Source: Haloprofundus halobius
GTDB taxonomy: Archaea; Halobacteriota; Halobacteria; Halobacteriales; Haloferacaceae
Direction of reading: 5' to 3'
Length of the DNA: 64,000 bases
Assembly: GCF_020097835.1 (NCBI RefSeq)
Contig: NZ_CP083666.1
Span: forward strand, 2,790,001-2,854,000
Positions 39,487 through 52,884 of the stretch are shown piece after piece. Under the pieces are notes generated by a model, which was not told where the DNA came from, made no database searches, and saw nothing but the letters and a program-made list of their open reading frames with translations. The translations under genes were made by a program, and so were the position numbers. Each line of letters starts with the position of its first letter. The first letter of the stretch is position 1.

Positions 39487-39717
39487 CGCGTGAACCCCTA
39501 CGTTCTCCGGGAGCATAACCCTCACACCCCCGGCATGTACGGCCGTTCGAGCGGAGTACCGGATAATGTTGCATCATCCACCCCGACCAACGATTTATTA
39601 CGGGGGTGCGCGGGTGACGAATCGGCGAGTACCAGCAACATCTGCTGATAGAAGGGACGGCGGTCAGTCGTGGCCGCGACGACGGAAGCTAAATCCCATC
39701 CGTCCGTAGCCCGCCAC
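39487..39717. promoter_or_regulatory. divergent rhodanese promoter region
   Basis: The 231-base gap between the two rhodanese genes carries AT-rich words (CGATTTATTACGG near 39590-39603 and AGCTAAATCCC near 39688-39697) suitable as promoter elements. The second lies about 25 bases before the ATG of the plus-strand gene. Confidence 0.4.
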
Positions 39718-40554
39718 ATGTACGAAAACGCCGTCGTGAGCGCGTCGTGGCTCGCCGACCGACTCGACGAAGTCCGCGTCGTCGACGTGCGCGACGCGTG
39801 GGAGTTCGACGGGATCGGGCACGTTCCGGGTGCGGTGAGCGTTCCGTTCGATACCTTCCGCAGTAGCGAGATGTCGGAGACGTCTCGTGACGAAGACGGG
39901 GACCCCGTCGGAGCAGGCGACGAGGGGATGTTACCCGGTGAAGAGATGTGGGCCGAGTTGCTCGGGGAGGCGGGCGTCGACAACGACGACCACCTCGTCG
40001 CCTACGACGACACCCACGGTGTCTTCGCGGCCCGCTTTCTCGTGACCGCCGAACTGTACGGCCACGACACCGACCGCCTCCACCTGTTCGACGGCGACTA
40101 CAGCGCGTGGAGCCGAGAGTACGAGACGACGACGGAGACGCCGGGACCGGAGCCGACGACGTACGAGGTCCGACGCCCCGACTCGTCGCCGCTCGTCGGC
40201 TACGAGACGGTCCTCGCCAGCCTCGACGACGACGAGGTGGTCGTCGTCGACACACGTGAACCGGGGGAGTACGAGGAGGGCCACATCCCCGGCGCGGTGC
40301 AACTCGACTGGCGGGAGTTCGTCGACGACGAGACGCGGGGACTGAAACCGGTCGAGGAACTCGAATCGATTCTGGCCGACCACGGCATCGGCGACGACCG
40401 GCGGGTGCTTCTGTACTGCAACACCGCCCGCCGCATCAGCCACACGTACCTCGTACTCCGACACCTCGGATACGAGGACATCGCGTTTTACGAGGGCAGT
40501 CTCACCGAGTGGGAGAGACGCGGCGGCCCCATCGACCGCGAGGACGAGAACTGA
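39718..40554 (+). CDS. thiosulfate sulfurtransferase (two-domain rhodanese), second copy
   Basis: A 278-residue tandem rhodanese divergent from the first. N-terminal domain: VVDVRDAWEFDGIGHVPGAV; C-terminal domain: VVVVDTREPGEYEEGHIPGAV, with the candidate catalytic cysteine in LLYCNTARRIS near residue 233. The loop differs from the CRxG type of its neighbour, so substrate may differ. Start MYENAVVSASWL follows an AT-rich promoter-like word by about 25 bases. Confidence 0.9.
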   Translation: MYENAVVSASWLADRLDEVRVVDVRDAWEFDGIGHVPGAVSVPFDTFRSSEMSETSRDEDGDPVGAGDEGMLPGEEMWAELLGEAGVDNDDHLVAYDDTHGVFAARFLVTAELYGHDTDRLHLFDGDYSAWSREYETTTETPGPEPTTYEVRRPDSSPLVGYETVLASLDDDEVVVVDTREPGEYEEGHIPGAVQLDWREFVDDETRGLKPVEELESILADHGIGDDRRVLLYCNTARRISHTYLVLRHLGYEDIAFYEGSLTEWERRGGPIDREDEN

Positions 40555-40583
40555 GACCGAAGAAGTGATCGAGACGAACCGTA

Positions 40584-40679
40584 CTCAGTACGGCTGAACG
40601 ATGACCCCTCAGTACGGCCGAACGATGGTCCCTCAGTACGGCCGAACGATGGCCCCTCAGTACGACTGAACGATGACCC
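40584..40679. repeat. 24-bp tandem repeat, four units, containing a stop codon
   Basis: Four units of exactly 24 bases (40584, 40608, 40632, 40656) differ at one to four positions. Unit four is the 3' end of the HalOD1 gene including its stop (read on the minus strand). The other three lie downstream in the same frame, so each unit reads eight codons ending in TAC and TGA on the minus strand. Confidence 0.85.
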
Positions 40680-40950
40680 GACCGTCGTCGCACGCGGCGA
40701 CGTGCGAACCGGCGTAGTGAAACTCGATGACGCGGCTGCAGGGTCGACTCAGCAGGTCGAGAGAGTCGTCCAGAATGGCATCGAGCGCGTCGGGGTCGAG
40801 CGACTCGAACAGCGGCGGCAGCGAGAGCGGGTCGACGTTCGTGGCGTCGGCGACGGCCCGGAGGACGGTGTCGCTCGGGCGTTCGCCGCTGTGGCTTCGG
40901 TAGGTTTTCGCGTTCGGCCCGGAAGTGATCAGCGGGGTGGAAGTGGTCAC
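40657..40950 (-). CDS. HalOD1 (halobacterial output domain 1) protein
   Basis: A 97-residue protein made essentially of one HalOD1 domain (DTVLRAVADATNVDPLSLPPLFESLDPDALDAIL ... VIEFHYAGSHVAACDDGRVIV). This haloarchaeal output domain is usually fused to or paired with sensors; function unproven. The start is a GTG (VTTSTPLITSG). The last eight codons and the stop are repeated three times downstream. Confidence 0.85.
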   Translation of the reverse strand: MTTSTPLITSGPNAKTYRSHSGERPSDTVLRAVADATNVDPLSLPPLFESLDPDALDAILDDSLDLLSRPCSRVIEFHYAGSHVAACDDGRVIVQSY

Positions 40951-52429: not shown

Positions 52430-52884
52430 GGCGATAGGGTGTCTCCCCGGGCGCTTAAAACGTGTTGAAAGGACGCGGCCCGTCGAGTAACGTCGCGTCC
52501 TGCGTCGGGACGATGCCCGGAGCGCGAACCGCGGAGGGCGTCGTTTCCGGTGGAGTAACCGAGCGAAACGTGATGTGTCGCCGTTCTCAGGGGAGTTGCA
52601 GGCGAAACAGAGGGGGTTGAGCGAGAAGGAAGAGAACACGCTGGGCGGTAGTGAGCCGAGTAGTGACGAGAAGCGCCATCAGACGAGATGATGGCGGTGA
52701 GCGTTCCGAGAGACGAGACGACGGGGAGGAAGTTGAGCAGACGAAACGGGGGAAGGAAGTTGGAGCAGTAAAACGGCGGGGAGAAGGATGGAACAGACGA
52801 AACGGCGGTATGTGGAGCCGTTCGCTCGCGGGCGGCGCGTTTTCGCCGGTGAGCCGCGGGAGAACGAGGCGTTACAGGACGGAA
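52430..52884. other. gene-free region with 28-bp satellite
   Basis: The 455-base gap between the microprotein gene and the 3' end of oapC contains purine-rich sequence. Its right half is a 28-bp tandem repeat, listed separately. The left part (52430-52680) has GGAAGAGAACACG-like purine stretches but no gene. Confidence 0.5.
52682..52820. repeat. degenerate 28-bp tandem repeat
   Basis: Units begin at 52682 (diverged, 30 bases), 52712, 52740, 52768 and 52796 (partial). Three consecutive units are exactly 28 bases. Consensus begins GACGAAACGGCGGGGAGGAA and ends GTTGGAGCA. Strong purine bias on the plus strand. Confidence 0.7.

Follow-up and report, generated by a model that had tools for sequence, protein, structure and literature searches.

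Several tandem copies of a gene's own end, stop codon included, lie directly beyond that gene in the haloarchaeon Haloprofundus halobius, which raises the question of whether they serve as spare stops or are a by-product of local duplication. The array lies at positions 40584-40679 of the window, by which we mean the whole 64-kb stretch of contig NZ_CP083666.1 that was analysed, and the gene is a stand-alone HalOD1 gene read on the minus strand. Our analyses indicate a neutral, species-specific tandem duplication at the HalOD1 gene end, by slippage or unequal exchange, with the extra stops as its by-product, a reading to which we give a probability of about 0.92.

The array itself is well defined. 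In the 64-kb window, Tandem Repeats Finder (TRF) describes it with a period of 24, 4.0 copies, 90% matches and no indels, and its score of 150 is the highest of 29 TRF rows. The top score reached in 100 versions of the window generated by an order-1 Markov control was 89, and the head-to-tail copies thus exceed chance as expected of a tandem repeat (minisatellite). Similarly, a degenerate core pattern of 20 bases has four matches in the window, all inside the array and with 0 mismatches, compared with 0.01 expected when up to two mismatches are allowed. The gene and the four units derived from its end are as follows.

40657-40950, minus strand: stand-alone HalOD1 gene of 97 amino acids with a GTG start and a TGA stop at 40657-40659, identified from its open reading frame (ORF) and Pfam PF18545.
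40656-40679, minus strand: unit 1, the ancestral copy, which is the HalOD1 gene end with its stop; the four orthologues have a similar end.
40632-40655, minus strand: unit 2, derived, three transitions from unit 1, with an in-frame TGA at 40633-40635.
40608-40631, minus strand: unit 3, derived, four transitions from unit 1 and one from unit 2, with an in-frame TGA at 40609-40611.
40584-40607, minus strand: unit 4, derived, one transition from unit 1, with an in-frame TGA at 40585-40587.

Read on the minus strand, the units are, in order, GGGTCATCGTTCAGTCGTACTGAG (the gene copy), GGGCCATCGTTCGGCCGTACTGAG, GGACCATCGTTCGGCCGTACTGAG and GGGTCATCGTTCAGCCGTACTGAG. Unit 1 encodes the VIVQSY end of the HalOD1 protein followed by TGA, and the three further TGAs stand at codons +8, +16 and +24 past the HalOD1 stop in the same frame, the next in-frame stop being at +242. 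An earlier sequence-only reading of this DNA had described four 24-base units that repeat the gene end and its stop, three of them beyond the true stop and in frame, and both the TRF score and the positions of the TGAs bear this out. Its description of the units as eight codons each holds for the 24-base period but not for the unit boundary, which is best placed out of codon register (GGGTC...TGAG); in that phase only four positions vary, all by transitions. The units form a chain U1-U4-U2-U3, in which U2 and U3 share two changes beyond U4. These four transitions are the pattern to be expected when units are duplicated step by step and then decay.

Tandem arrays are places where assembled copy number goes wrong, and a wrong copy number or a chimeric repeat would yield an artefact of this kind. 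An array of 96 bp is, however, shorter than the usual sequencing read, and the assembly consists of five contigs with 99.7% completeness. Furthermore, the units differ from one another in an ordered way, which makes an artefact hardly likely; we consider this explanation exceedingly improbable. A dispersed or mobile repeat was also considered and rejected: a search of the organism's own genome (3.95 Mb) returned a single match at E <= 0.001, the array itself, with viral, phage and plasmid collections outside that search.

Comparison within the genus places the origin of the extra units in the H. halobius lineage. Four congeneric genomes (G001-G004) keep the HalOD1 gene, the upstream regulator gene and the surrounding rhodanese genes, including the convergent rhodanese gene of G003, which the gene caller overlooked in the synteny table but whose translation is present at the locus. 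The HalOD1 orthologues in these genomes are 63-80% identical to the H. halobius protein, that of G002 being the most similar (80%), and they end in VQSY, VQSH, VQSH and VQPH before a stop that is TGA in three genomes and TAA in G001. The G002 gene end shares an identical run of 13 bases, CAGTCGTACTGAG. At the syntenic site, by contrast, the array is present in none of the four congeners, although the flanks are conserved. A gene end that is alike in all four relatives, next to an array found in none of them, means that the gene end is ancestral and that units 2-4 arose in the organism's own lineage. A loose search (E <= 10) gave weak, short matches in each of the five genomes of the genus; outside the array, the strongest is the orthologous gene end in G002 (E 0.0136). 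A scan of named-genome contigs gave one locus, in Haloprofundus marisrubri SB9. Fourfold sites differ by 22-32% from G002 in the eight of nine neighbouring genes that have an orthologue there, while the units diverge at 1-4 of 24 bases, which is compatible with an origin of the array after the split from the congeners. The sequence-only reading had proposed homologous loci as a check; those examined lack the units, the units are clearly duplicates of one another, and the four relatives gave no sign that they are unrelated sequence.

An array unrelated to that of H. halobius, built of 21-bp units, is found in the corresponding part of the convergent spacer of G001 (L004, 1380-1478); it lies in the 3′ end of the rhodanese gene and encodes an acidic, ESD-rich C-terminal tail of that protein; an alternative TRF description has 42-bp units that extend beyond that stop.

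Downstream of the HalOD1 gene and the array lies a rhodanese gene.

39718-40554, plus strand: two-domain rhodanese (sulfurtransferase) gene, convergent with the HalOD1 gene, with two stretches matching Pfam PF00581.

The rhodanese start at 39718 is the choice of a gene caller based on codon usage, the longest ORF beginning at 39670. The rhodanese stop is 29 bases from the array, which fills 73 of the 102 bases between the two convergent genes. We infer that slippage during replication, or an unequal exchange involving short repeats, would have copied 24 bases around the HalOD1 stop into this spacer, and that further rounds of duplication would have brought the number of units to four. The protein is unchanged and a duplication of any length is tolerated, because the first copy retains the coding sequence and its stop. 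As untranslated 3′ DNA, the additional units would be nearly free of selection and would now be diverging. The in-frame stops would then be a by-product of copying a stop-bearing segment whose period, 24, is a multiple of three by coincidence. An origin by replication slippage had been put forward from the sequence alone, and the conserved gene end together with the absence of the array from all four congeners supports it, or tandem duplication of another kind.

Duplication without cost at stops fits the placement of arrays beyond this locus, where arrays of any period occur at gene stops at about chance frequency, and less often at starts. A survey of 2.06 Mb from five haloarchaeal genomes, with 1,832 predicted genes, yielded 164 distinct arrays with a TRF score of at least 60, 103 of them wholly in genes and 61 touching non-coding DNA; random placement served as the control. 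Eleven of these 61 contain a gene stop, compared with 11.3 expected. Arrays holding a predicted start number three against 11.9 expected; all three belong to the distant genome G059, with none in the three congeneric genomes, where 8.6 would be expected. Genes and starts come from our own simple codon-usage caller, so that start calls are less certain than stop calls and the deficit at starts is to be read accordingly. The period is divisible by three in four of the 11 stop-holding arrays (the three classes contain 4, 3 and 4), while in the positive control, the arrays inside genes, it is so in 98 of 103. An apparent enrichment at stops in a first count (54 arrays of the own-genome sample, seven holding a stop and none a start) was gone once random placement and four more genomes were included. 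The own-genome count in the final survey is six, after setting aside L080 10422-10493, which contains no non-coding base.

Several observations weigh against the neutral reading or limit how far the survey can carry it. The mutational step is not visible, and no microhomology was identified at the array edges in the match string. Agreement with chance at stops is an average: the three sampled congeneric genomes have 11 stop-holding arrays against 8.1 expected (Poisson 0.19), of which the organism's own genome accounts for six against 3.9, while the two more distant genomes have 0 against 3.1. Of the other 50 arrays touching non-coding DNA, 26 have a period that is a multiple of three, which exceeds one third (p 0.007) and suggests that this set probably includes coding arrays or missed genes; relative to these 50, the stop-holding arrays likewise have no frame preference. 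At least one further in-frame stop is present in seven of the 11 stop-holding arrays, recurring with the unit only in the array of the window, L078 and L120. A weak preference could escape a survey that relies on a simple gene caller and has only 11 such arrays.

Other placements were considered and rejected. Convergent spacers are not a hotspot: they contain 14 arrays (2.05 per 10 kb), compared with 16 (1.82) in divergent and 28 (1.54) in codirectional spacers, with no clear difference between the densities. On the evidence of 58 distinct loci, HalOD1 genes are likewise not special sites for arrays. The five genomes of the genus alone contain 123 HalOD1 matches, and the test of the 58 loci (33 in a first pass) covered 60 bases before to 260 bases after each stop. 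Only four of the 58 have a nearby array scoring at least 60, three of these four being the same orthologous locus, and the stop is spanned only in the array of the window.

The survey and the window also contain other arrays of similar kind. L078 5918-5971 (G000:C1:1285918-1285971) is a perfect 18-bp array of three units that holds the TGA of a predicted gene; further copies of this TGA follow in frame at codons 6 and 12, and the perfection of its units suggests a recent event. The top-scoring stop-holding array of the survey, L122 6087-6241 in G004, has 2.8 units of 56 bp with 94% matches and spans the stop of a predicted gene. Right after the stop of another HalOD1 gene in G001 (L045, 1745-1962) lie arrays of 2.8 units of 20 bp and 4.7 units of 22 bp. 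In the window itself, an imperfect 28-bp array of 3.4 units (score 95) occupies 52711-52805, a stretch without a predicted gene.

The HalOD1 protein belongs to its Pfam family by a clear margin, scoring 62.4 bits against PF18545 with a curated cut-off of 26.3. It also scores 64.4 bits against the NCBIfam model DdfA (disk-determining factor), slightly below the cut-off of 70.

The sequence-only reading had further proposed that the array acts as multiple backup stops, which would require that it be maintained because a leaky HalOD1 TGA gains from spare in-frame stops. Any ribosome reading through that TGA would literally meet such stops at +8, +16 and +24, with none thereafter before codon 242, and the L078 array elsewhere in the genome likewise repeats a gene stop in frame. 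A selected function is nevertheless not supported. Among the four orthologues, the distance to the following in-frame stop is 75, 240, 222 and 38 codons, and the extra stops are thus not conserved. Predicted genes in the own-genome sample have no in-frame excess, with a further stop within eight codons in 49 of 454 genes in frame compared with 54 in the +1 frame and 62 in the +2 frame. If in-frame stops were selected, array periods that are multiples of three should be favoured, and the four of 11 found in the survey therefore speak against such selection, as does the chance frequency of stop-holding arrays. All three extra stops are intact, but the 72 derived bases carry no more than four substitutions, so that survival of the stops is expected by chance, with a probability of about 0.6 by our arithmetic. 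For eubacteria, the consulted portions of Ho and Hurst 2019 (PMC6764699) report no evidence of selection for additional stops; the main text of that study never uses the word archaea. We therefore regard selected backup stops as highly unlikely.

The position of the array also invites an explanation at the level of RNA, in which a repeated motif or hairpin forms part of the 3′ untranslated region or terminator and ends or stabilizes one or both convergent transcripts. The extent to which the array fills the convergent spacer is in line with such a role, and the minimum-energy fold places a hairpin at its far end.

40577-40595, minus strand: short hairpin of eight pairs, made up of the end of unit 4 plus flanking bases, with its loop over the last TGA; not unusual.

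Passages of a study of Haloferax volcanii describe hairpins upstream of 503 mapped termination sites, yet they also give a stretch of T as the intergenic termination motif (PMC7237163). No hairpin-plus-T-run site occurs on either strand between 40400 and 41100, a result of limited weight in archaea, as the consensus is bacterial. Perfect hairpins with 6-bp arms are common in the non-coding DNA, with a density of 2.3 per kb. A structured RNA was rejected because the folding energies are not unusual, with z values of -0.88 on the minus strand (46 of 200 shuffles as good) and -1.35 on the other (24 of 200). The four congeners, moreover, do without the array at the same convergent spacer. Nothing points to a function in termination or RNA structure, and we consider one very unlikely. 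Similarly, transcripts of the convergent HalOD1/rhodanese pair might overlap in the array, pair and tune the level of HalOD1, with unit number acting as a species-specific rheostat, a speculation that we hold to be highly improbable.

A neutral tandem duplication at the gene end is of little importance alone; its by-product is a small test of array placement in five haloarchaea. Stops are hit at about chance frequency, starts less often, and the frame is kept inside genes, so that neutral debris can serve as the default reading of repeated stops at gene ends in the absence of contrary evidence. A literature search, at the level of titles and abstract openings, found no report of the array at 40584-40679.

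Prokaryotic genomes contain intergenic minisatellites, or variable-number tandem-repeat loci, in which short head-to-tail units of around 20-30 bp are present in some related genomes and absent from others, as the HalOD1 array is. Like the fail-safe additional stops discussed in the consulted parts of PMC6764699, the array places in-frame stops after the primary one. Fail-safe stops are proposed for cases in which selection favours them, whereas the HalOD1 array has no sign of selection. A match in layout comes from the Borg elements, whose tandem repeats, in the portions of the account consulted (PMC9879509), start within the terminal part of an ORF and continue into the spacer. These repeats are described there as recently formed and as arising independently, with unit lengths that are multiples of three in all arrays inside ORFs, compared with only 14-38% of the intergenic ones (PMC9879509). 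Borg arrays, as characterized in the same text, are perfect, A-enriched and pervasive (PMC9879509), whereas the HalOD1 array is imperfect, rich in G+C, limited to four units and located on a haloarchaeal chromosome. The HalOD1 array is thus one more case of repeats that begin at the end of an ORF and reach into the spacer, as in Borgs.
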